NCBI RefSeq assembly: GCF_014062315.1
Contig: NZ_JACGLT010000002.1
Span: 62,001-126,000, forward strand
DNA from: Gelidibacter maritimus
GTDB taxonomy: Bacteria > Bacteroidota > Bacteroidia > Flavobacteriales > Flavobacteriaceae
Length of the DNA stretch: 64,000 nt
Direction: 5' to 3'
The notes under the pieces are model-generated. The model did no database searches, had not been told where the DNA came from, and saw only the letters and a program-made list of their open reading frames with translations. Shown here in pieces: positions 26,001 to 35,854 of this stretch. Both the position numbers and the translations under genes were made by a program. Positions within the stretch are counted from its first letter, which is position 1, and every line of letters starts with the position of its first letter.

Positions 26001-26390
26001 TTACAATCGGTCTGAAATACGTTTAGCAATGGCTTCAAATTCTTCCTTTTCCAAGCTTACCTTGTTCGTAAATCGGATATCATCCATGCTATGCAACGGG
26101 ATCAGATGCACATGAACATGTGGAACTTCCAGGCCAACAACAGACATGCCCACTCGCTTACAAGGCACTGCTTTTTTTAAAGCGATTGCCACACTTCTGG
26201 AAAACTCCATTAATCCCACATAGGTAGTCTCGTCCAAATCAAAAAGTTGATCCACTTCAATTTTGGGAATACACAGGGTGTGACCTTCTGTATTGGGATT
26301 TACATCTAAAAATGCCAAAAAATCTTTTGTTTCAGCAACTTTATAACTTGGAATTTCACCATTGACGATTTTAGTAAATATGGATGCCAT
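26001..26390 (-). CDS. HIT family nucleotide-binding hydrolase
   Basis: This 129-residue histidine-triad protein (Hint/PKCI type) hydrolyses nucleoside phosphoramidates or related adenylylated compounds. The triad HVHVHLIP occupies residues 91-98 with His93 as the likely nucleophile. SIFTKIVNGEIPSYKV at the N-terminus and NPNTEGHTLCIPK are characteristic. It lies downstream of greA in the same direction, but a terminator and a 105-base heptamer tandem array separate them. The array sits 63 bases upstream of this start, where promoter elements would be expected. Confidence 0.93.
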   Translation of the reverse strand: MASIFTKIVNGEIPSYKVAETKDFLAFLDVNPNTEGHTLCIPKIEVDQLFDLDETTYVGLMEFSRSVAIALKKAVPCKRVGMSVVGLEVPHVHVHLIPLHSMDDIRFTNKVSLEKEEFEAIAKRISDRL

Positions 26391-26453
26391 TTTATTTGTG
26401 TTTCTTAGTTGTTTTTGTTTTCCGCCGTTGTTTTGTTACAAACGGGCAGGCCT

Positions 26454-26558
26454 GTTTCTTGCTTCTTGCTTCTTGTTTCTTGTTTCTTGTTTCTTGTTTC
26501 TTGTTTCTTGTTTCTTGTTTCTTGTTTCTTGTTTCTTGTTTCTTGTTTCTTGTTTCTT
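26454..26558. repeat. Heptamer tandem array, 15 copies of GTTTCTT
   Basis: This is exactly 105 bases, fifteen 7-base units on the plus strand; units 2 and 3 are GCTTCTT and the others are GTTTCTT. On the minus strand, the transcribed direction for hit and greA, it reads AAGAAAC repeats. It lies between the greA terminator and the HIT gene start. The perfect identity of most units suggests recent slippage and variable copy number. Confidence 0.97.
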
Positions 26559-26607
26559 AAAGCATAGTTTTTTCTTGGACTCCGAACTCTATAAATATAA
26601 AAAGAAA

Positions 26608-26637
26608 ATTCCTGTTAGAATTGATCTTAACAGGAAT
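26608..26637 (-). terminator. Terminator of greA
   Basis: ATTCCTGTTA (26608-26617) pairs with TAACAGGAAT (26628-26637); on the minus strand the stem is followed by the T-rich run TTTTCTTTTT. It lies 35 bases beyond the greA stop. Confidence 0.85.
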
Positions 26638-26671
26638 GTTGTGTTTTTTATTAAAAAGGATCTAAGCCGGA

Positions 26672-27145
26672 CTATCTCGAAATTTCCAAGATGTCAAACT
26701 TTAAAATGCCGTTAGGCACTTCAATATCTGCAACTTCACCTACTCTTTTACCCAATAGGCCTCTTCCAATAGGAGAGTTGACTGAGATTTTACCGGATGC
26801 CAAGTCTGCCTCACCATCGGCTACCAAAGTATAGGTCATTTCCATACCGTTGGTTTGGTTTTTTATTTTCACGGTAGAAAGCACTAAAACCTTGGAGCTA
26901 TCCAATTGCGATTCATCAATCAATCGGGCATTAGCCAGGGTTTCCTCTAATTTGGATATTTTCATCTCCAGCATGCCCTGTGCTTCTTTGGCTGCATCAT
27001 ATTCAGCATTTTCACTTAAGTCGCCTTTATCCCTTGCCTCACCGATAGCTCGTGAAGCATTTGGGCGTTCAACATCCTTTAAGTAACTGAGTTCTTCCCT
27101 TAATTTTTTTAAACCTTCCGCAGTATAATAAGATACTTTACTCAT
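26672..27145 (-). CDS. greA: Transcription elongation factor GreA
   Basis: This 157-residue factor stimulates transcript cleavage in backtracked RNA polymerase. The N-terminal antiparallel coiled coil (about 1-75) includes the tip sequence ARDKGDLSENAEYDAAKEAQ, whose acidic D and E residues act at the polymerase active site. A C-terminal FKBP-like domain (about 80-157) contains ISVNSPIGRGLLGK. The length is standard. The leader holds two hairpins, one followed by seven U, between a TAnnTTTG box and the start codon, hinting at attenuation. Confidence 0.97.
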   Translation of the reverse strand: MSKVSYYTAEGLKKLREELSYLKDVERPNASRAIGEARDKGDLSENAEYDAAKEAQGMLEMKISKLEETLANARLIDESQLDSSKVLVLSTVKIKNQTNGMEMTYTLVADGEADLASGKISVNSPIGRGLLGKRVGEVADIEVPNGILKFDILEISR

Positions 27146-27296: not shown

Positions 27297-27719
27297 ATGA
27301 AACAGATTTTTTTATTAATTAGCCTACTTTTTTTAACTGCCTGCAGCAGAAACAATAACGATGAAAACTGCAAATTCCTCGTCAATGCCGCGGTCAATGT
27401 TACCATCAATATGAATTTACCGCAATACAACCAATTGCAATTTACCAGCAATTCAGTTTATATTGCCAACCAAGGCAATAAAGGCGTGATTTTAATCAAT
27501 GTTGGGAGTGGTTACCGCGCTTGGGACGCTGCAGATCCCAACCATGAACAAAGATCATGCTCACTACTAACAATTAATGGCGCCAACGCCATTTGTGGTT
27601 GCGTTGACGCCAATAATTATAGCTTATTTACAGGAGGTTCCGTCGGAAAACAGTTGCTTTGTGGACTTAAGGAATACCGTGTAACCGTATCTGGAAGCTC
27701 GCTCCATATTACCAATTAG
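27297..27719 (+). CDS. Lipoprotein, possibly a degenerate Rieske-like domain
   Basis: This 140-residue lipoprotein starts at MKQIFLLISLL, with lipobox LTAC (Cys16). The C-terminal domain is beta-rich, with DPNHEQRSC followed by ICGCVDANNYSLF and a closing YRVTVSGSSLHI. This layout recalls Rieske [2Fe-2S] proteins (C-x-H ... C-x2-H), but the first Cys is replaced and the second box lacks His, so a cluster is unlikely. The assignment is tentative. Its stop codon overlaps the stop of the convergent TonB-dependent receptor gene by two bases, so no terminator separates them. Confidence 0.65.
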   Translation: MKQIFLLISLLFLTACSRNNNDENCKFLVNAAVNVTINMNLPQYNQLQFTSNSVYIANQGNKGVILINVGSGYRAWDAADPNHEQRSCSLLTINGANAICGCVDANNYSLFTGGSVGKQLLCGLKEYRVTVSGSSLHITN

Positions 27720-30187
27720 AATTTCAAAGTAGCTCCAACTAAAAAGTTGGTAGTGGCTTGTGGAAAATATCCTGCACCTTCAATAGTAGTCACTTGGTTT
27801 GGATCCGTCCAATTATCGTCATAAGTGTAGTAAAATCCATTGGATATGTATTTCTTATTGAAAATATTATTTACCAATCCCGAGAATAAAACCGATTTGA
27901 GGAAAGGCTTTTTCTGAGTGTCAACATTAGACTTCAAATGCCATTCATAGGTAACATTTATATCGTTCACAAAATAAGCATCCAATTTAGAGGCTTGCGA
28001 ATCGGTATTGCCCATAAACTGTTCGCCGACATACTTACTCAACAAGCTGATTTGAAAATCTTCTTGGGGCTGATACACTAAGGCATTTGAAGCTACGAGC
28101 TCTGGTGAAAACGAAATGTTTGTCTTACCTAAATCCACTAACTCGCCATCGCGTTCAATAACCGTCTTTTTATTTTTATTTGAGCTCAGCGTCACACTAG
28201 GCTGTAACGTCCATTGCGAGGTCAATCTCAGTGCCGCTTCAATTTCCAAACCTAAGCGGTAACTGTCGCCACTATTGGTTCGGATTGGATTTCCAGTGGT
28301 ATCAAGTTCTCCTGTCAATACCAGCTGTTCATTGTACATCATATAATAGGCATTAGCATTGATGCGGAACGCAGGATCATCATAGCGCCATCCCAGCTCA
28401 AAATCATTAAGTTGCTCAGGTTTGACGTCGGCATTATTTTGGAAATCTTTACGGCTCGGCTCTCTATTGGCTCTTGCATAAGAAAAATACAAAGCATTTG
28501 CTGCGTTAAATTGGTAGTTAAAACCTGCTTTTGGATTAAAGAAATTAAAGGTTTCGTCAATTTCCATGAGATCCATATCTGAGTTTGTTCCTGTCGTGGA
28601 ATAGTCCACATTACGATACTGCAAATCGCCATAAAAACTCAATTGTTCATCAAACTGATAGGTGGCTTTTGCAAACACATTGGCATCGGTTTTCTTCCCG
28701 TTACCATCATAATAACGATGTCCTTTAGGTGTGTTTCCTGCATATTGCGCCCAAATCACCTCGCCATAATGATCGCCACTATACGTACTGTAAGAGGTTC
28801 CGAAGGAAAGGTCTAAATTGTTCTTTTTATAATTGGCGTTGGCATTGATCACATAAAAGTGATTATCCAACCATCGGCGGCGCACCAAGTCAGTATCCGT
28901 AATACTCTCACCTCCCAGTTCAATATTTTCCATACCGTATTTTATTAAGTTCTGATCTTCTTTGTATTGCTCAAAAAAGCCCAAACCTCGTGTATAGTTC
29001 AATCCCAAATTTGTAGACCATTGGTTATTGATGCGCTCATTCCAATGTAGTTGGTAGTGATCCTGCTTATAGTCGTCAATTTCATTATCATAAAATTGAA
29101 TATTTCCGTCAGCATCAGTGTACATTCCGGCGGTATTAAAAGTTCTATGATTTTCCAATAGATCCAAATCTTCCAATCCATTCCAGGCTTGATAAGTGAT
29201 TTCTTGGCCTCCAAAAACAACCGCTTTGATCAGGCGATTGGTATCAACATAGGCACCTTGCAAGAAATATGATTTTAGATCTGAACTCGCTCGATCAATA
29301 TAACCATCCGACTTAATATTAGACAGACGTCCTGAAACTTCGAAGTGGTCATTTAAGCGTCCGGTACTAAACTTAAGTGTGTGTTTGTGGGTGTTATAAC
29401 TCCCAAAAGAATTTGCTATTTCAGCACTCGCTTCATTAGACACGCTTTCCGTAAGCACATTTATACTTGCGCCAAAAGCACCAGAACCATTTGTTGATGT
29501 GCCGACACCACGTTGCAATTGCATGCTCTCTGTGGATGAAGCAAAATCGCTCAGATTGACCCAAAAGGTGCCCATAGATTCCGGATCGTTATACGGGATG
29601 CCATTTATGGTAATGTTGGTAGATTGCGCATTAATTCCGCGCACTCTAATGCCTGTATAGCCCACTCCTGCTCCAGCATCTGTCGTGGTGACCACTGATG
29701 GTAAAAAATTAAGAAGCATCGGAATGTCCTGGCCTAAATTACGTTTCTCCAGATCCTCCTTTGATATATTGGAGTGTGTAATGGGTGAGCTTGAACCAAC
29801 GCGCACGGCGTTGACCAATACTTCGTCCAATACCTCAGCCGTTTCGTTAATCACGATATTAAGCACTAAATCAGCAGTGAGTTCAAAGGTTTTCTCGATT
29901 GGTTTTGCTGTTAGATAGCGGATTTCTAAAGTGTGTGTTCCTTGGGGCAAGTCCAAAGCATAGTGCCCGTTGATATCCGTTTGGGTCCAGGTCTCGCTAT
30001 GTTTCAGTTGTATACTGACCCCTGCCAGTGGTTCGGAATTTTGTTGAGTGACAAGGCCAGAAACACGATAGTTTTGTGCAAAAGCCGTCAGGCTCGATAA
30101 GAGCAAAAAACAGGTTAAAATGAAATAAAAAGATGGTTTAAATCGACCTTTAGCCGGTACATTTTTGAATGTGAACAAAGATTTCAT
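27716..30187 (-). CDS. TonB-dependent receptor behind a TPP riboswitch (predicted thiamine receptor)
   Basis: This 823-residue outer-membrane receptor has a signal peptide (about 1-38), a CarboxypepD_reg-like beta-sandwich (about 40-120, VSGLVTQQNSEPLAGVSIQL), a TonB-box-like EVLVNAVR, a plug with GIRVRGINAQSTNITINGIPY, and a 22-strand-type barrel ending in ATLKF. The upstream leader contains a TPP aptamer on the same strand, so expression should fall when thiamine pyrophosphate is plentiful. That makes thiamine or a precursor the likely substrate, in agreement with riboswitch-linked receptors described in Bacteroidetes. A PnuT-type permease and thiamine-binding protein are encoded 3-4 kb upstream. 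Confidence 0.93.
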   Translation of the reverse strand: MKSLFTFKNVPAKGRFKPSFYFILTCFLLLSSLTAFAQNYRVSGLVTQQNSEPLAGVSIQLKHSETWTQTDINGHYALDLPQGTHTLEIRYLTAKPIEKTFELTADLVLNIVINETAEVLDEVLVNAVRVGSSSPITHSNISKEDLEKRNLGQDIPMLLNFLPSVVTTTDAGAGVGYTGIRVRGINAQSTNITINGIPYNDPESMGTFWVNLSDFASSTESMQLQRGVGTSTNGSGAFGASINVLTESVSNEASAEIANSFGSYNTHKHTLKFSTGRLNDHFEVSGRLSNIKSDGYIDRASSDLKSYFLQGAYVDTNRLIKAVVFGGQEITYQAWNGLEDLDLLENHRTFNTAGMYTDADGNIQFYDNEIDDYKQDHYQLHWNERINNQWSTNLGLNYTRGLGFFEQYKEDQNLIKYGMENIELGGESITDTDLVRRRWLDNHFYVINANANYKKNNLDLSFGTSYSTYSGDHYGEVIWAQYAGNTPKGHRYYDGNGKKTDANVFAKATYQFDEQLSFYGDLQYRNVDYSTTGTNSDMDLMEIDETFNFFNPKAGFNYQFNAANALYFSYARANREPSRKDFQNNADVKPEQLNDFELGWRYDDPAFRINANAYYMMYNEQLVLTGELDTTGNPIRTNSGDSYRLGLEIEAALRLTSQWTLQPSVTLSSNKNKKTVIERDGELVDLGKTNISFSPELVASNALVYQPQEDFQISLLSKYVGEQFMGNTDSQASKLDAYFVNDINVTYEWHLKSNVDTQKKPFLKSVLFSGLVNNIFNKKYISNGFYYTYDDNWTDPNQVTTIEGAGYFPQATTNFLVGATLKF

Positions 30188-30334
30188 TCGAATAAATAAA
30201 TTTAGACGAATAAAAAGAGGTAATTATTCTTAGTTAAAAATTATATGATTGTTTTAAGCTTTAAAATTTAGCGGTATCTTATTAAGAATTTTGCCGGCAA
30301 CCGTTAATTAAGTCTTGAGACCTATTTTAAAACT

Positions 30335-30500
30335 TATATTCCTAAACGGCATTATCCGTTCTAGGTTCAATGGGTATGATCTCAGCCGATTCGATTGTAA
30401 ATTTTTGATTTTTGATATCTGATTTTTGAATCTTTTCTATTCAACAATCATCAATCTTCAATCTCCCATTATCAATCTATCAAGCACCCCTTTTTTGAGA
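30335..30500 (-). ncRNA. TPP riboswitch with an enlarged P3 arm
   Basis: On the minus strand the conserved parts appear in order. GGGGTGC (30490-30484) opens P2/P3. GCTGAGATCATACCC, with the invariant CTGAGA, closes that arm. GAACCTA, GGATAATGCCG and TTTAGGAA then form P4/P5 and the end of the core. GGGT pairs with ACCC as P2. Between GGGGTGC and CTGAGA lie about 95 bases, far more than in compact aptamers. They consist of GATTGA- and TTTGATTTTTGA-like low-complexity sequence, so the P3 arm is expanded. The element lies just after a promoter box and about 150 bases before the receptor start. Confidence 0.88.
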
Positions 30501-30506
30501 ACGGTG

Positions 30507-30514
30507 CAAAGATA
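30507..30514 (-). promoter_or_regulatory. -7 box of the TPP riboswitch-receptor transcript
   Basis: TATCTTTG on the minus strand matches TAnnTTTG. A start about 5-7 bases downstream (near 30501) would place the transcript 5' end immediately before the aptamer. Confidence 0.6.
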
Positions 30515-30731
30515 AGAATGAATTAAGAATTAAAAAATAAGAATGACTAATTATTTAACCAACATCAATAGAAGTTGAAGTACTCCGAGAAATGTACGAA
30601 AAACTTTGTTTTAGAGAACCTGAGACGCAGAAGGAAAACCTTCATATTGCGCTTCTCGATTGATATTCAAATTATACTAATGAATGCCATTGCATACTAT
30701 TGACTGCCGACTGCCAACCGTTAACTGTGCA

Positions 30732-31136
30732 CTACTCTATATCCGGCGGCCTCCGATTAGCCTTTTTATCGGAGATTTTCCGTTTCGCCTTCAATCGTTT
30801 TCTAACCACTGATCTTGGTATTTTTGTGGCAATACGTTTTTTGGGAATAATCAATCCTTCCTTGATGAGATCGAAAAAGCGTTGCACGACAAGCGTTTTG
30901 TTTTTATGCTGACTTCTGCTCTCTTCGCATTGAAGCATGAGAACATTTTCTTTGGTGAGTCGGTTTTTGAGGTTTTGCTGCAATAATACTTTTTCATCGT
31001 CGGTCAATCCATTTGAAGCTTCCAAATCGAAAATGAGTTCCACTTTTGAGGCTACTTTATTGACATTCTGGCCCCCTGCGCCTGAGCTCCTCACCGCTTT
31101 AAAATCTAATTCTGATTGCAAAATTTCTTTGTTCAT
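30732..31136 (-). CDS. arfB: Alternative ribosome-rescue factor / peptidyl-tRNA hydrolase
   Basis: This 134-residue release-factor-like protein hydrolyses peptidyl-tRNA on stalled ribosomes lacking a stop codon. The start is taken at MNKEILQSELDF; nine extra upstream residues are not family-like. The catalytic GGQ is at residues 21-23 in SSGAGGQNVNKVASKV. The C-terminal tail is strongly basic (RKRLKAKRKISDKKANRR), as needed to enter the empty mRNA channel. Both flanks carry ACTGCC-type repeat sequence. It sits between the two halves of the presumed thiamine locus without an obvious functional link. Confidence 0.92.
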   Translation of the reverse strand: MNKEILQSELDFKAVRSSGAGGQNVNKVASKVELIFDLEASNGLTDDEKVLLQQNLKNRLTKENVLMLQCEESRSQHKNKTLVVQRFFDLIKEGLIIPKKRIATKIPRSVVRKRLKAKRKISDKKANRRPPDIE

Positions 31137-31142
31137 GGACAA

Positions 31143-31257
31143 GGTTATAGACACGGATTTCACGGATTAACACCGATTTTAAACTCAAATATAAACGAAA
31201 ATTTTGCAGTTCTTTACTGCCAACTGAGGCCTAAAGACTAGCAACTGAGCACTACTC
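31143..31257. repeat. Intergenic repeat fragments upstream of arfB
   Basis: ACACGGATTTCACGGATTAA at 31150-31169 resembles a CACGGATTT repeat I recall from many Bacteroidota genomes. The stretch from about 31207 to 31257 (TACTGCCAACTGAGG ... GCAACTGAGCACTACTC) matches the ACTGCC/GCACTACTC stretch at about 30693-30735 on the other side of arfB. Confidence 0.5.
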
Positions 31258-32805
31258 ATTTTGATGCGTCGGTTTCAGCAAGTCGGTGACTGTTTTTACT
31301 GGATTAAAAGTAATTAATGGCACTTCAACAAAAACAGTATTCCATCCGGCCATACTGCCATTCCAAAGTCCGGGCAATTCCAATGCCATCAAATCTTTTC
31401 CGGCTTTAGTTTTCTTGGTGATAAAGGCGGTTTTTGGATCGACAAAATCTTGTAGGTCAAAAACCTCACCTTTGTAATTTTTGATGCCACAGACCAAATC
31501 GACAGGATTGAAATGTGTAGCGTTCATTAAAATTTCATTTTGCTTTTTATTGTCTTTATCAATTTGTGCCGACTCTACAATTTGAAGTGAGATTTGCCCT
31601 TTTTCGTCCTTTACCCAAAATGGGCCACCTCCAGGTTCTCCTTCGTTTTTGACCATCCCACATATACGGATGGGTCTGTTCAATCTGTCAACTAAATATT
31701 CAATTTTATATTTTGTGGAAAACTTCTCGAACTCAGAGCTGATGACCACATTCAATTTATTAACTAAAAACTCAGAAATTTTTAGAATATCGTCTTCTGA
31801 AACTTCTCCTTTTTCAAGATGCTTCAAATGTTCAAAAACCTCCTGCTGAATTTCCAATAACATGCCGGCCAACATTTTTTTATACTCGGCCACTTCATCC
31901 TCATATTTATAAACGACAACATTATCAATATTCTTTATAAAAATGACATCTGTGTCCAATTGGTTCAAGTTGTCCAGCAGCGCCCCATGACCTGACGGTC
32001 TAAAAGTCAATTGTCCATCATCATCTCGGAAAAGCTCGTTTTGGGGAGTCACCGCAATGGTATCGGTTGAGGCCTTTTGATACGAAAAGGCAATAGTGAA
32101 CTTGGTATTTGTTTTGCGCTCTACAATGTCCTGAATTCGGGCAAATTCGTCATCAAACATTTTTTTATAGACTTCGGAAATTGTAAAATGCAGATATGCC
32201 AAATTATTTGTGGATGCATATAAGGCTGCTTCAAATAAATGCTCCTCAAAAGCGGTTGCCAGATGATTTTTATATTTATGAAATGGCAGCAGCCCTTTTG
32301 GATAGAAGCCATAATTCATTTTATCCACATCCATCATTGTTTTAACGAATAACAATTTTTGCTTGTCCTTACAGAACGAAGCATGATCAGGATAGAAAAC
32401 ATGAAGCTGTTCCATTACCCTATTATAAAACGGTAACTTTTCCATACCCATAAAAAACAAGGACAAATCCGTATCGTTATGTTTATTGATAAAGGAATTT
32501 ATCGTTTCGTCTTCTGGAGCGTATTCTTCAATAAACCTAAACAAGGTTTTAAACATTCGTGTAGCTGCTCCTGAGGCAGGAACGAATTTAGCCAGCGAGA
32601 CTCCATCTCTTTCATTCTCAAAGAAGTTGATATAATATGTTTTCGTTTCTTCAGAACATTTGACGATACCGTTATCTATGGTAGCCGCCGAACTAAGGTT
32701 CACAAAAGGCACACCCGATTTAAAAAGCTCAAGTTGCGCTTGGACCTGCTCTAAAGTCAAACCTTTACCTTTAATTTGCTGAAGATCAATATCTGTAAAT
32801 TTCAC
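31252..32805 (-). CDS. DUF4301 protein (nucleotidyltransferase-like)
   Basis: This 517-residue cytosolic protein is of the DUF4301 family. KFVPASGAATRMFK at about residues 73-86 resembles the G-x-G-T-R-M nucleotide loop of sugar-nucleotide pyrophosphorylases. RPSGHGALLDNLNQLDTD (about 267-284) recalls the P-x-G-H-G segment of UDP-sugar pyrophosphorylases. A nucleotidyltransferase fold is therefore plausible but unproven. Its ATG overlaps the stop of the NadR-like kinase gene by four bases, so it is the last gene of the thiamine-BP/pnuT/kinase operon. Involvement in cofactor activation is inferred only from that context. Confidence 0.8.
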   Translation of the reverse strand: MKFTDIDLQQIKGKGLTLEQVQAQLELFKSGVPFVNLSSAATIDNGIVKCSEETKTYYINFFENERDGVSLAKFVPASGAATRMFKTLFRFIEEYAPEDETINSFINKHNDTDLSLFFMGMEKLPFYNRVMEQLHVFYPDHASFCKDKQKLLFVKTMMDVDKMNYGFYPKGLLPFHKYKNHLATAFEEHLFEAALYASTNNLAYLHFTISEVYKKMFDDEFARIQDIVERKTNTKFTIAFSYQKASTDTIAVTPQNELFRDDDGQLTFRPSGHGALLDNLNQLDTDVIFIKNIDNVVVYKYEDEVAEYKKMLAGMLLEIQQEVFEHLKHLEKGEVSEDDILKISEFLVNKLNVVISSEFEKFSTKYKIEYLVDRLNRPIRICGMVKNEGEPGGGPFWVKDEKGQISLQIVESAQIDKDNKKQNEILMNATHFNPVDLVCGIKNYKGEVFDLQDFVDPKTAFITKKTKAGKDLMALELPGLWNGSMAGWNTVFVEVPLITFNPVKTVTDLLKPTHQNE

Positions 32806-33368
32806 GCTTTCGTTTTTATAAGTTCATCAATTTGATCAACCGCGAGCTGAAATCGCTCAGCAATAGATCCTTTCAATAAAATATAGGGTTTATTATATTT
32901 AATTAAGACGTCTTCAAAGGCTTTAAACATAGCTTCCCTATCATGGGGCCGATCTCTTAGATGGTCAGCTACCCATGGAAAATCAATATAAGTCAAAAAA
33001 TAGAAATCGTAGCTGTTTTCTATAGCATATTTTTCAAGAACCGGGTCACAGACCCCATTGTAATAAGCTTCAGAATAAACTTTTGTTTCCAATAAATCCG
33101 TATCACAAATAAGTACTTTGTTTGCTTTTGGAGCCAGTTTATTTTCCAATCGCATTTGCCCCTCAGCAATCGGCAGGACATCATTTATTGTTAGTGTTTT
33201 TCCGAAACGTAATTTTTCTTCAGCATAAATACGAGAATATTCAGGCACAAATACCGTTTGATAATGCTGTGCCAACTGCTTGGCTAACGTACTTTTCCCG
33301 GTTGATTCTGGACCAAATAAAACTACTTTTATGCAATCTGAGGCGTCTTGTCTAAGCTTTTCTTCCAT
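32802..33368 (-). CDS. NadR-like P-loop kinase in the PnuT operon
   Basis: This 188-residue AAA_28/NadR ribosylnicotinamide-kinase-like protein has a P-loop GPESTGKST at residues 19-27. It is followed by VFVPEYSRIYAEE and CDTDLLETKVYSEAYYNG, the nucleoside-binding pattern seen in NadR kinase domains, and the lid segment LRDRPHDREAMF. There is no nucleotidyltransferase or HTH domain. The start at MEEKLRQDAS is chosen; it lies inside the upstream permease gene (40-base overlap). In NAD salvage such kinases trap substrate entering through PnuC; here, beside PnuT and a thiamine-binding protein, thiamine is an alternative substrate. Confidence 0.85.
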   Translation of the reverse strand: MEEKLRQDASDCIKVVLFGPESTGKSTLAKQLAQHYQTVFVPEYSRIYAEEKLRFGKTLTINDVLPIAEGQMRLENKLAPKANKVLICDTDLLETKVYSEAYYNGVCDPVLEKYAIENSYDFYFLTYIDFPWVADHLRDRPHDREAMFKAFEDVLIKYNKPYILLKGSIAERFQLAVDQIDELIKTKA

Positions 33369-33961
33369 GCTATATATCCGTAAATTGCTATAAATGTAAA
33401 TCCAAAATATTGAATGCTGGTAAATGTGAATCCTTTGTAGAAATAGAGAGGAATGGAAATGAGGTCTCCTATAATCCAGTAAATCCAGTTTTCCACTTTT
33501 CGACGTGCCATAAGCCACATCCCTACAAAGAAAATTGCGGTTGTGAACGTGTCAACATAAGCCACCCAACTGGTCCATTTATCAAAGCCTTTATATACAA
33601 TGAATACAAAGCCAATGGTTGCCAAAAATATTAAAAGACTGATTTTATGCTCCCGAGCGGTCGTTCTTGCAATAGGCGTAACATGAGTGCTGTCTACTTT
33701 TCTGGTCCAAATATACCACCCATAAACACTCATAGCGAAATAATACCCATTGATCATCATATCCCCCAAAAGCTCCCATTTTAAGAGTAGGTACACAAAA
33801 ATCCCCGTGCTGATCATTCCTGTAGGAAAGACCCAAATATTATTTTGTTTAGAACTCCAAACTGAAAGAAATCCGAAGATAACGGCTACAATTTCTAAAA
33901 CAATATCTGTGGTTTCATAGCCTGAATATTGTCCGAAAAGGAAATCAAAAATGTGGCTCAT
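33329..33961 (-). CDS. pnuT: PnuC/PnuT family vitamin permease (predicted thiamine transporter)
   Basis: This 210-residue inner-membrane permease has about seven hydrophobic segments and the PnuC-family sequences NIWVFPTGMISTGIFVYLL and NWIYWIIGDLISIPLYFYKG. PnuC proteins move nicotinamide riboside, and the PnuT branch moves thiamine, by facilitated diffusion driven by downstream phosphorylation. Context favours PnuT: it overlaps a thiamine-binding protein gene upstream and a NadR-like kinase gene downstream (40 bases), and a TPP-riboswitch receptor lies in the same region. NR transport remains possible. The start at MSHIFDFLFGQ is preferred; an ATG at 33985 would add eight residues. Confidence 0.85.
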   Translation of the reverse strand: MSHIFDFLFGQYSGYETTDIVLEIVAVIFGFLSVWSSKQNNIWVFPTGMISTGIFVYLLLKWELLGDMMINGYYFAMSVYGWYIWTRKVDSTHVTPIARTTAREHKISLLIFLATIGFVFIVYKGFDKWTSWVAYVDTFTTAIFFVGMWLMARRKVENWIYWIIGDLISIPLYFYKGFTFTSIQYFGFTFIAIYGYIAWKKSLDKTPQIA

Positions 33962-34205
33962 ATTCGTTTCTATCAGATTTGACAATTTTTATATAAACCA
34001 ATCCACGTTCCACCAAGGTGAATGCTTCTTTAATTTCAGTGGTCAGAAGTTGCATAACCACGTCATAATCGCCATAAACCTGTGTACTCAAAGGATTTTC
34101 CAAGACCGTTAGTCCTGAAGCTCTTAATTTTTTGATAAAATGGATGATGCTTGGCTCATAATCATCATGCAAAGGCGTCAAGGTTAATTCTACTGATATT
34201 TTCAT
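33945..34205 (-). CDS. Thiamine-binding protein (MTH1187/YkoF-like)
   Basis: This 86-residue ferredoxin-like-fold protein of the Thiamine_BP (formerly DUF77) family carries ISVELTLTPLHDDYEPSIIHF and a central GLTVLENPLSTQVYGDYDVVMQLL. Members bind thiamine or hydroxymethylpyrimidine in the cytosol. It is the first gene of an overlapping set with pnuT (17-base overlap), a kinase and DUF4301. Its family is the strongest argument that the operon handles thiamine rather than nicotinamide riboside. Upstream, at 34221-34237, is a short TCCCGATAACTACGGGA palindrome. Confidence 0.85.
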   Translation of the reverse strand: MKISVELTLTPLHDDYEPSIIHFIKKLRASGLTVLENPLSTQVYGDYDVVMQLLTTEIKEAFTLVERGLVYIKIVKSDRNEYEPHF

Positions 34206-34298
34206 AACATTTCCTGTGTATCCCGATAACTACGGGAAAGAATCTCATTTTAGTTAAACTTATCTCTATATTCCCTCTTTTGTGGGAATCTTTAAATA

Positions 34299-35069
34299 TT
34301 ACTTCTCTTCTTTGGACAAATGTTCAAAAGTCATTGCTACATTTAATTCTTCAAAAAACAATTCATTTTCTTCAAATGCGGTTCCGATCACCATCAAATC
34401 TGCTCCGGAATCATAGGCAGCATCCAATTGTTTTTTAGATCTAATACCACCGCCAACAATAAGCGGAATGCCCACATCATTTCTTACCGCTTGAATAATT
34501 TCAGAATTTATAGGATCAATCGCACCACTTCCTGCCTCGAGATAAATACATTGCATCCCTAAAAGCTCTGCTGCTTTTGCGGTATCGACAATAGCCTGAA
34601 TATTTTGTCTATTCAAAGGTTGGGTGTTAGTTACACGTTCCACAGCGGTTTCCTTTCCGTTTTCGATTAAGAGATAACCCGTAGGAATAATTTCAAGTTC
34701 CATAGTCCTTAACACTGAAACAGCTTCAACCTGTTTACCGATTAGATAATCAGGATTTCTCCCCGAGACCAATGACAAAAACAACAAGCCATCAGCTTTT
34801 GACGATAACTGTGAAACATCTCCGGGAAAAATTAGGATGGGTAAATGGGTCCATCGTTTTAACTCTCTAATCAACAAATCCGTTTGACCTGTTTCAACCG
34901 TACTGCCACCAACAAAAATATGAGTGACCAATGAACCATTCAGTTGGGGCACAAATTTTGGGACGACCTCCAACTTCATTTTGTCAGGATCAATCAAGAC
35001 GGCCAAAAGCTTTTCCTTTAAAGAAATTGCAGTTAATAAATCTTGATATAAATTCTTCTGTTTAGCCAC
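34299..35069 (-). CDS. Geranylgeranylglyceryl/heptaprenylglyceryl phosphate synthase
   Basis: This 256-residue TIM-barrel prenyltransferase joins a polyprenyl diphosphate to sn-glycerol-1-phosphate, the archaeal-type ether-lipid step also found in Bacteroidota. LAVLIDPDK near the N-terminus, FVGGSTVETGQTD, YLEAGSGA and the phosphate-binding PLIVGGGIRSKKQLDAAYDSG are all present. The chemistry is known for the family; what the lipid does in flavobacteria is unclear. It lies between the thiamine-binding operon and a phosphopantetheinyl transferase gene on the same strand, with gaps of 93 and 155 bases. Confidence 0.9.
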   Translation of the reverse strand: MAKQKNLYQDLLTAISLKEKLLAVLIDPDKMKLEVVPKFVPQLNGSLVTHIFVGGSTVETGQTDLLIRELKRWTHLPILIFPGDVSQLSSKADGLLFLSLVSGRNPDYLIGKQVEAVSVLRTMELEIIPTGYLLIENGKETAVERVTNTQPLNRQNIQAIVDTAKAAELLGMQCIYLEAGSGAIDPINSEIIQAVRNDVGIPLIVGGGIRSKKQLDAAYDSGADLMVIGTAFEENELFFEELNVAMTFEHLSKEEK

Positions 35070-35224
35070 GACTGTTTTGCTATAAATCTGTTTAAAACTT
35101 TTCTACTTGAAATTTTGATATTATCCTTTCTGCTTAGTCATGCACCCTTTGCTATCGGGAGCACGAATGTATTTTATAATTTCATTACCCTGAATTCAGA
35201 ACTCTGAACTCATACCACCACACC

Positions 35225-35854
35225 TCACCCTTCGTAGGCATAAGCACATGAAAAGCCTTCAAATTCAAAAAAGTGCGTATTATATCTGTATTTCCTATCT
35301 TCATAATCAATCCAAGCTACCGTCTCTTCATCTTTAATCATGAATGGAATTACTAAAAAATGGTGTTTAAACATCATGCCCGGCGTTGCAAACAATTTGT
35401 ACAAAGATTCTTTGATACACCAGATTACGGTTAGTTTGTTAATATAATCGTCAGCAGTAGCTACTAAATAATCTGCTTCATAACCAATAAATTTATGGGC
35501 GATGACCGCTATTTTCTCACGCTGTTTTTCAATGTCTATTCCAACCTTTTGATCACTGACAATAACTCCTGAAAATGTAAATGAATGGGTAATGGAGATA
35601 TGTTTGCCGTCTTTTAGGTGAGGTTTGCCATTTTCGTCATAATACAAATCATGGTCGGTGTAACCAAATTCCGCCAACAGATGGCGTACACTTAAAAATC
35701 CGCGCTGGTGAAGTTCACTTTTCATCCCCAAAACTCTGGTCATGCATTCATCTCTTAGGGTGATGGGCTGCATGAGTGCTTCATAGGATTCTGTAATCTG
35801 CCAGATTTTAACAGTAGTTTGTGAGTTTGGGGTAATGGTTTTATATAATGGCAT
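35225..35854 (-). CDS. 4'-phosphopantetheinyl transferase superfamily protein
   Basis: This 209-residue Sfp-type enzyme transfers phosphopantetheine from CoA to carrier proteins. The metal and substrate motifs are GIDIEK (Asp) and WCIKESLYKL (W-x2-K-E-x3-K), with HISITHSFTF upstream as the first conserved block. It could activate the fatty acid acyl carrier protein or a secondary-metabolite carrier; no acpS or carrier gene is in the window. It is divergent from ahcY, and the 159-base gap between them contains the ahcY promoter and leader hairpin. Confidence 0.9.
   Translation of the reverse strand: MPLYKTITPNSQTTVKIWQITESYEALMQPITLRDECMTRVLGMKSELHQRGFLSVRHLLAEFGYTDHDLYYDENGKPHLKDGKHISITHSFTFSGVIVSDQKVGIDIEKQREKIAVIAHKFIGYEADYLVATADDYINKLTVIWCIKESLYKLFATPGMMFKHHFLVIPFMIKDEETVAWIDYEDRKYRYNTHFFEFEGFSCAYAYEG

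Follow-up and report, generated by a model that had tools for sequence, protein, structure and literature searches.

A predicted thiamine import-and-trap locus with a NadR-like kinase and a DUF4301 protein in Gelidibacter maritimus

The stretch of DNA analysed here, referred to as the window, is a 64-kb part of a Gelidibacter maritimus contig, and the locus in question occupies positions 27716-35854 of its minus strand. From upstream to downstream it carries genes for a phosphopantetheinyl transferase, a PcrB/GGGPS-family protein, a small Thiamine_BP protein, a PnuC-family permease, a NadR-like kinase, a DUF4301 protein and ArfB, followed by a thiamine pyrophosphate (TPP) riboswitch and the gene of a TonB-dependent receptor. 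The best supported interpretation is that this locus is a thiamine import-and-trap variant of the pnuT-tnr3 theme of Bacteroides, which is considered likely on the comparative sequence evidence given below. An earlier reading made from the letters of the window (the sequence-only reading) had named these parts with the exception of ArfB and the two genes upstream of Thiamine_BP, and Pfam scans together with a check of the open reading frames (ORFs) found all the parts it named on the minus strand where that reading had placed them. The features are as follows.

27716-30187, minus strand: TonB-dependent receptor, predicted thiamine outer-membrane receptor (OMthi/omr1 role); Pfam barrel 107.9 bits, plug 46 bits, CarbopepD_reg_2
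30318-30504 (core 30363-30386), minus strand: TPP riboswitch aptamer with a long P3a arm; cmscan and exact core
30732-31163, minus strand: ArfB ribosome-rescue hydrolase; NCBIfam NF006718, 130 bits vs. a cut-off of 100
31252-32805, minus strand: DUF4301 protein, 517 aa, GTG start; PF14134, 722 bits
32802-33368, minus strand: NadR-like P-loop kinase, 188 aa, predicted thiamine kinase; PF13521 (AAA_28), 136 bits
33329-33985, minus strand: permease of the PnuC family, PnuT (thiamine) clade, with a probable ATG start at 33961; PF04973, 182 bits, and tree
33945-34205, minus strand: small Thiamine_BP (UPF0045-type) protein, predicted to bind thiamine; PF01910, 26.3 bits vs. a cut-off of 24.9
34299-35069, minus strand: PcrB/GGGP-synthase-family gene; NCBIfam NF003198, 263 bits
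35225-35854, minus strand: 4'-phosphopantetheinyl transferase; PF01648, 37 bits

The overlapping operon described in the sequence-only reading is indeed present, with overlaps between the Thiamine_BP and permease genes, between the permease and kinase genes (40 nt) and between the kinase and DUF4301 genes (4 nt, GTGA). The kinase ORF as listed starts at 33518, and the start conserved across an alignment of 14 relatives is the ATG at 33368. The Thiamine_BP protein scores barely above the PF01910 cut-off, and its PDB profile matches are SP2199 (2ibo, E 3.7e-5) and MJ1052 (E 0.0037).

The locus was compared across 198 Bacteroidota genomes, 19 of them from the window's own family, which is labelled f1 (other families are f3-f36, with genera, genomes and loci given g-, G- and L-numbers) and is taken as Flavobacteriaceae because the nearest kinase among the best 80 loci of named genomes is that of Gelidibacter gilvus, at 84% identity. 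DUF4301 occurs in 32 of the 198 genomes, 16 of which belong to f1, and at these 16 f1 loci (window included) the permease adjoins in all 16, a kinase is present in 14, and 15 have a TPP core with a receptor relative after it. A similar picture was obtained with 20 further f1 genomes, 7 chosen for a long DUF4301 frame and 13 spaced down a match ranking, where the permease is in place in 19, a full kinase in 18 (it is truncated in two), the TPP core in 19 and a receptor relative after the core in 18. The best 80 named-genome loci were chosen by kinase match and are hence uninformative on kinase absence; among the 73 with full flanks, the permease adjoins in 71, DUF4301 in 68, Thiamine_BP lies just upstream in 64, and a TPP core lies within 6 kb downstream in 56. 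Since the arrangement is kept across f1, the locus is not a product of chance.

The distribution of the kinase was analysed against that of the thiamine genes. The own genome contains ThiL (318 bits) and gave no match to thiamin pyrophosphokinase (TPK, PF04263) at E 0.001 and no ThiC match. Its ThiE-like gene (L134:8149-8790, contig C18) scores 143.9 bits, just under the TIGR00693 cut-off of 145.1. No thi gene turned up in the scan of its neighbours, which instead code for an ABC transporter, a permease of FtsX type and a flavin-type protein. ThiE, TPK, ThiL and the kinase were looked for in all 198 genomes, with only matches over the cut-off counted for ThiE (89 of 124 matching genomes), ThiL (148 of 197) and the permease (82 of 83). 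The kinase matched in 58 genomes at E 0.001, of which 52 were kept at E <1e-17, the six weak, mostly partial matches of G018, G032, G062, G089, G148 and G154 being dropped. Five of the 52 (G013, G034, G096, G131, G190) have a NadR only, leaving 47 genomes with a stand-alone kinase. NadRs were called by Pfam for seven proteins (with the domain under the cut-off in G096) and by reading of the N-terminus for G131 and G186, and the other stand-alone kinases were called from length or from overlap with a permease gene.

A gap genome was defined as one having ThiL and neither ThiE nor TPK, with YjbQ and ThiK outside the search. All 34 gap genomes carry this kinase family, 30 of them (9 families) as a stand-alone kinase, which is found in only 17 of the 164 non-gap genomes (Fisher p 3e-19). 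Among NadA-bearing genomes alone, the contrast is 16/20 vs. 9/137. Each of the 198 genomes has at least one of ThiE, TPK and a member of the kinase family, counting NadR, and none of the 34 gap genomes is among the 67 ThiC-positive ones. The permease occurs without the kinase in 30 genomes, 29 of which have TPK; within the window's class, the stand-alone kinase is present in 36/36 TPK-less and 7/13 TPK-bearing genomes. In genus g2, where 9/9 genomes have TPK, G084 and G154 have lost the kinase, which fits redundancy. At the loci concerned (L047 in G084, L044 in G154), and at L151 (G344) and L152 (G345), where the kinase is truncated or lost, DUF4301, permease and receptor remain.

The permease tree, built from 80 rows of which some are long-branched, places the window permease in a clade of 57 (support 100/99) that contains 38 of 39 permeases from f1 loci, 8 of 9 TPK-adjacent ones, 8 of 19 from other kinase loci and 3 from TPK genomes. 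Among the nine NadR-adjacent permeases, five form a separate 100/99 clade with E. coli PnuC; of the other four, which fall outside both of these clades, three form a third clade and one is unplaced. The TPK-adjacent permease that falls outside the main clade is that of L163. One genome, G182, possesses two permeases, one like that of the window and one like that of E. coli. The window permease thus groups with TPK-linked permeases and away from those of nicotinamide riboside (NR), so that it appears PnuT-like and is predicted to transport thiamine. The accessible text of PMC5613172 reports a Bacteroides PnuT as a thiamine transporter.

The TPP riboswitch that the sequence-only reading had placed before the receptor is upheld by its exact core and full-length alignment, while its score stays below the RF00059 gathering threshold and its P3a insert is unusual. 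No RNA in the 64-kb window reaches an Rfam gathering score, and TPP is the best Rfam match at 30322-30501 (22.5 bits vs. gathering 54.3, E 0.052), with the alignment spanning the full model. The core GCTGAGATCATACCCATTGAACCT matches the pattern exactly, with no match of any kind in 100 shuffles, and the conserved aptamer core (GGGGTGC ... GCTGAGAT..ACCC..GAACCT) is present together with its helices and is kept in relatives. An A/T-rich insert of ~93 nt in the P3a arm (30387-30483), which looks made of simple repeats, forms a single long hairpin in the minimum free energy structure (z −1.92), and inserts at the same place in relatives range from <10 nt to >80 nt. The gathering score is reached at L101 and L117 (f5) and L119 (f9) and missed at all six other f1 loci scanned. 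Because some of these six have short inserts and miss the threshold all the same, while the f5 and f9 loci pass it, f1 seems to carry a variant TPP aptamer. A genome-wide RF00059 search of the own genome gave no match at E 0.001, and the pattern search (≤2 mismatches, with zero hits in the reversed-pattern control) found a single core in the 4.7-Mb genome, the one at the receptor. The same search found a core in 84/198 genomes. A core lies within 10 kb of 19/47 stand-alone kinases (15 f1, 2 f5, 2 f9) vs. 0/9 NadR genes; the kinase-riboswitch link is thus present in three families and was not observed in the others. Flavo-1 RNAs (RF01705) also lie close to the thiamine loci of two g2 genomes (L040 10762-10840 and 12416-12494; L042 2188-2263).

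The three best-matching PDB entries for the kinase itself are NadRs (E 3e-26 to 3.6e-21), and the kinase contains a P-loop domain of the ribosylnicotinamide-kinase type. It is not a full-length NadR: its 188 aa include no adenylyltransferase domain for nicotinamide mononucleotide (NMN), and it scores 103 vs. 341 bits with TIGR01526. In a tree of 53 kinases, with f1 thinned to 15 and some rows long-branched, the 15 f1 sequences form one clade (100/99). This clade groups with 26 further stand-alone kinases (86/80), separately from the f8, f10 and f17 NadRs of Bacteroidota. Weakly supported positions outside this main clade are taken by a few f24, f28 and f36 kinases of the stand-alone type, and the NadR rows are not monophyletic. 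G049 and G146 each have one stand-alone kinase and one NadR in different clades; G186 looks alike by reading, its NadR not being in the tree. A different fusion was observed at L102:6666-8108 (G072, f9), where a NadR-like kinase is joined to an aldose 1-epimerase domain (PF01263) rather than to DUF4301.

Gap-filling, the permease tree and the TPP-riboswitch linkage together suggest that the kinase probably is a thiamine kinase. The proposal of the sequence-only reading that this enzyme may act on thiamine thereby gains support, from 34/34 gap genomes, the permease tree and the riboswitch linkage in three families. Several observations weigh against it. Eleven of the 19 permeases at other-family kinase loci lie outside the thiamine-type clade (f3, f5, f9 and some long branches) and give no support to a thiamine reading for their families, and the f1 permease of L150 lies outside as well. 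(This locus, in G213, has lost its PnuT-type permease, and a distant permease of the PnuC family follows the receptor instead.) For 28 of the 47 stand-alone kinases, no TPP core lies at a distance of 10 kb or less; in these genomes a core is present elsewhere in 21 and absent by pattern in 7. The gap contrast lies mostly between families (within-family Cochran-Mantel-Haenszel (CMH) p 0.013, three informative families), and it could be affected by YjbQ and ThiK, the former being described as a ThiE stand-in in the accessible text of PMC5613172. In four gap genomes (G013, G034, G131 and G096) the kinase family is represented by a NadR alone, whose N-terminal adenylyltransferase-like domain is weak in G096. 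The ThiE-like gene of the own genome may supply thiamine monophosphate also from precursors, and seven of the nine g2 genomes keep the kinase beside TPK. The kinase is assigned to no sequence family other than NadR/AAA_28, and no residue pattern separating thiamine from NR was found in its alignment. A residue signature based on the NR-stacking residues of H. influenzae NadR was dropped, as these are not conserved even among aligned Bacteroidota NadRs. Finally, NadA is missing in 22/47 kinase genomes vs. 19/151 others, and neither NadA nor a nicotinate phosphoribosyltransferase (NAPRTase) match is found in 6/19 f1 genomes (G029, G057, G130, G134, G142 and G182, the last of which has its own NadR besides).

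The NadA pattern bears on the alternative that the locus serves NR salvage, in which the permease would import NR, the kinase would make NMN and DUF4301 would adenylylate NMN to NAD, the thiamine features being mere neighbours. The kinase belongs to the NadR family, and the reaction of NMN with ATP to give NAD and PPi is of the type carried out by the UDP-sugar-pyrophosphorylase fold, to which DUF4301 is assigned below. Besides the excess of NadA-less kinase genomes, DUF4301 is anticorrelated with NadA, which is missing in 20/32 DUF4301-positive vs. 21/166 DUF4301-negative genomes (present in 12/32 vs. 145/166). In f8, DUF4301 and NadR alternate, three DUF4301-positive genomes having no NadR among the kinase matches and three DUF4301-negative genomes having one. 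However, the link between kinase and NadA vanishes within families (CMH p 0.59), that between DUF4301 and NadA is weak there (CMH p 0.046), 25/47 kinase genomes possess NadA, and the ThiE/TPK gap predicts the kinase even among NadA-bearing genomes. The permease groups with the TPK-linked clade and not with NadR-linked PnuC, and the linkage to a TPP riboswitch and Thiamine_BP would be left as coincidence. NAD metabolism as the driver of kinase occurrence is therefore not upheld within families, and the overall NadA tendency keeps it a rival: the NadA pattern slightly lowered the probability given to a thiamine kinase and slightly raised that given to NR salvage, which is still held to be unlikely. 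A regular linkage to NAD genes and never to TPP riboswitches, named in the sequence-only reading as the outcome that would speak against thiamine, was not what was found, yet kinase genomes are more often without NadA. Alternatively, the kinase could act on a thiamine precursor or breakdown product, such as hydroxymethylpyrimidine (HMP) or the thiazole alcohol. The own ThiE-like gene could use salvaged precursors, and YkoF, a relative of Thiamine_BP, binds HMP. However, ThiE over the cut-off is absent from the 34 gap genomes, in which phosphorylated precursors could not be joined unless YjbQ does so and in which ThiL would be left without substrate. This alternative is thus regarded as very unlikely, and thiamine stays the favoured substrate of the kinase.

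The sequence-only reading had also noted pyrophosphorylase-like loops in DUF4301, and structure prediction agrees with it. An AlphaFold2 model built with 32 sequences has a predicted local distance difference test score (pLDDT) of 92 and a predicted template modelling score (pTM) of 0.91, and its best whole-chain Foldseek matches in the PDB are UDP-N-acetylglucosamine (UDP-GlcNAc) and UDP-glucose pyrophosphorylases (UAP and UGP; E 1.2e-10). In VIA-align the best row is Ugp1 (Z 21.7, 323 residues, 3.6 Å), the best 50 rows extend down to Z 16.3, the last two being GlmU, and identity to the best ten rows is 14 to 19%. The best match of a PDB profile search is weak, a UDP-GlcNAc pyrophosphorylase at E 0.0087, with the GHG...NiDN stretch aligned to 3oc9. 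The model therefore assigns DUF4301 with high confidence to the UDP-sugar-pyrophosphorylase-type fold, as predicted. Compared with the UGP/UAP enzymes (PDB 2i5k, 3r2w, 1vm8, 9g53), the modelled protein shares the whole-chain fold; it differs in its low identity, in having no UDPGP match in Pfam at E 0.001 (PF14134 alone was matched) and in a run of helices that occupies residues 85-157 and separates the first loop from the PK motif. R82, P168 K169, GHG 271-273 and KNxDN 290-294 are invariant in the 32 sequences; they are candidate catalytic residues and presumably resemble the catalytic motifs of UDP-sugar pyrophosphorylases. Because these motif-like residues are invariant, DUF4301 is probably an active enzyme that would catalyse X-P + NTP <-> NDP-X + PPi. 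Beyond a mention in a rumen metaproteome paper, no study of DUF4301 was found in the open-licence text of PubMed Central (PMC).

A connection between DUF4301 and the kinase is suggested by gene fusion. Both are fused into a single frame at 14/36 f1 loci with DUF4301, 7 of these having been picked for fusion; the single frame occurs in 7 g2 genomes and at least 7 other f1 genomes, and also in 2 of the best 80 named loci, which may overlap the other fusion sets. In most fusions the two domains lie within a few residues of each other. On the DUF4301 tree (52 rows, some long-branched) the fused state requires 7 changes, at least 5 of them forced by supported branches, showing that fusion or fission occurred several times. 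Repeated fusion points to a shared substrate or a complex, although the two genes almost touch in any case. The AlphaFold2 model of a fused protein (pLDDT 89.5) reached a pTM of only 0.73, lower than that of DUF4301 alone, and this gives the relative orientation of the two domains too little certainty to speak for a shared channel. The interpretation given in the sequence-only reading is, overall, supported in part. DUF4301 may act next after the kinase, as that reading suggested: the repeated fusion argues for a link, but the distribution of DUF4301 does not follow the thiamine genes tested.

It is only slightly less than an even chance that DUF4301 has nothing to do with thiamine and is a housekeeping enzyme of the pyrophosphorylase fold, whose overlapping gene occasionally fuses with that of the kinase by frameshift, as the overlap of just 4 nt would easily permit. 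Outside f1, no relative of the window permease or kinase was found in the 9-15 kb around DUF4301 in stretches from 16 genomes of seven families (f6, f7, f8, f10, f15, f20, f33). The neighbours there vary by family: LamB/YcsF and two carboxyltransferase-domain genes lie upstream in G076 (f8), and a cation-efflux gene lies next to DUF4301 in G031 (f15), with G111 and G124 looking alike by reading only. No gene context of DUF4301 common to the families compared was found outside f1. Within f1, permease and kinase stand without DUF4301 in G029, G088 and G107, and DUF4301 remains after kinase loss in G084 and G154. Against such independence, DUF4301 follows directly on the kinase in 68 of the 73 full-flank named loci, and the fused state was gained or lost several times over and persists in most members of one genus-level clade. 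A more specific assignment as a thiamine-phosphate nucleotidylyltransferase, which would join a nucleotide to thiamine monophosphate (or TPP) to give adenosine thiamine di- or triphosphate, is a long shot; if true, the synthesis of adenylated thiamine would for the first time have a gene assigned to it, and the fusion with the kinase would be a two-step thiamine-nucleotide synthase. According to the accessible text of PMC8615392, there is no in vitro demonstration of adenosine thiamine diphosphate synthesis, and the thiamine diphosphate adenylyl transferase activity was lost on further purification.

Under the favoured thiamine import-and-trap reading, the TonB receptor, under control of the TPP riboswitch, would take thiamine through the outer membrane, and the PnuT-type permease would equilibrate it across the inner membrane. 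The Thiamine_BP protein may, to judge from its family, bind thiamine in the cytoplasm. The NadR-like kinase would then convert thiamine into thiamine monophosphate, thereby trapping it and feeding ThiL, which would make the cofactor TPP, so that the kinase would replace the TPK (Tnr3/ThiN) of Bacteroides pnuT-tnr3 operons. DUF4301 would be an accessory nucleotidyl-transfer enzyme, probably acting on a phosphorylated small molecule. Every substrate in this scheme is predicted, from the gene order, fusions, predicted fold, distribution and trees reported above.

The closest known counterparts are the pnuT-tnr3 and OMthi loci of B. thetaiotaomicron (BT2396-BT2397 and BT2390 in the accessible text of PMC5613172). 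In both systems, a TonB receptor with a TPP riboswitch, a PnuT-type permease and a phosphorylating enzyme are present in a split arrangement. In contrast, the own genome has a NadR-like kinase and a separate ThiL in place of TPK, the locus adds Thiamine_BP and DUF4301, and a riboswitch was found at the receptor only. NadR-PnuC salvage of NR likewise combines a PnuC-family permease with an adjacent NadR-type substrate-trapping kinase, whereas the window kinase has no NMN adenylyltransferase domain, the permease is in another clade, a TPP riboswitch is nearby, and the majority of stand-alone kinases form a group separate from the NadRs of Bacteroidota. ThiK, ThiN and ThiM, which carry out the same predicted metabolic step or its bypass, belong to protein families unrelated to the NadR-like kinase. 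These three are given as the signature of B1 salvage in PMC6593275, the accessible text of which does not name a NadR-like kinase, and no report tying this kinase or DUF4301 to thiamine was found in the open-licence text of PMC.

The remaining genes of the locus appear to be bystanders. ArfB is a syntenic neighbour with no obvious role at a thiamine locus. The PcrB/GGGPS and phosphopantetheinyl transferase genes are frequent upstream neighbours, their synteny being kept at many, not all, f1 loci, and they are probably outside the mechanism. On the plus strand, at 26362-26715, an ORF of repeated FLFLVSC-like units was observed, which is probably a tandem DNA repeat and not a gene.

If the favoured reading is correct, it predicts the missing thiamine kinase for Bacteroidota that have ThiL and none of the usual routes to the substrate of ThiL, including Flavobacteriaceae, many of which look like B1 auxotrophs. 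For DUF4301, the analysis offers a predicted fold, a partner and residues that are likely to be catalytic, and the fused kinase-DUF4301 proteins would bring both steps into one purification.

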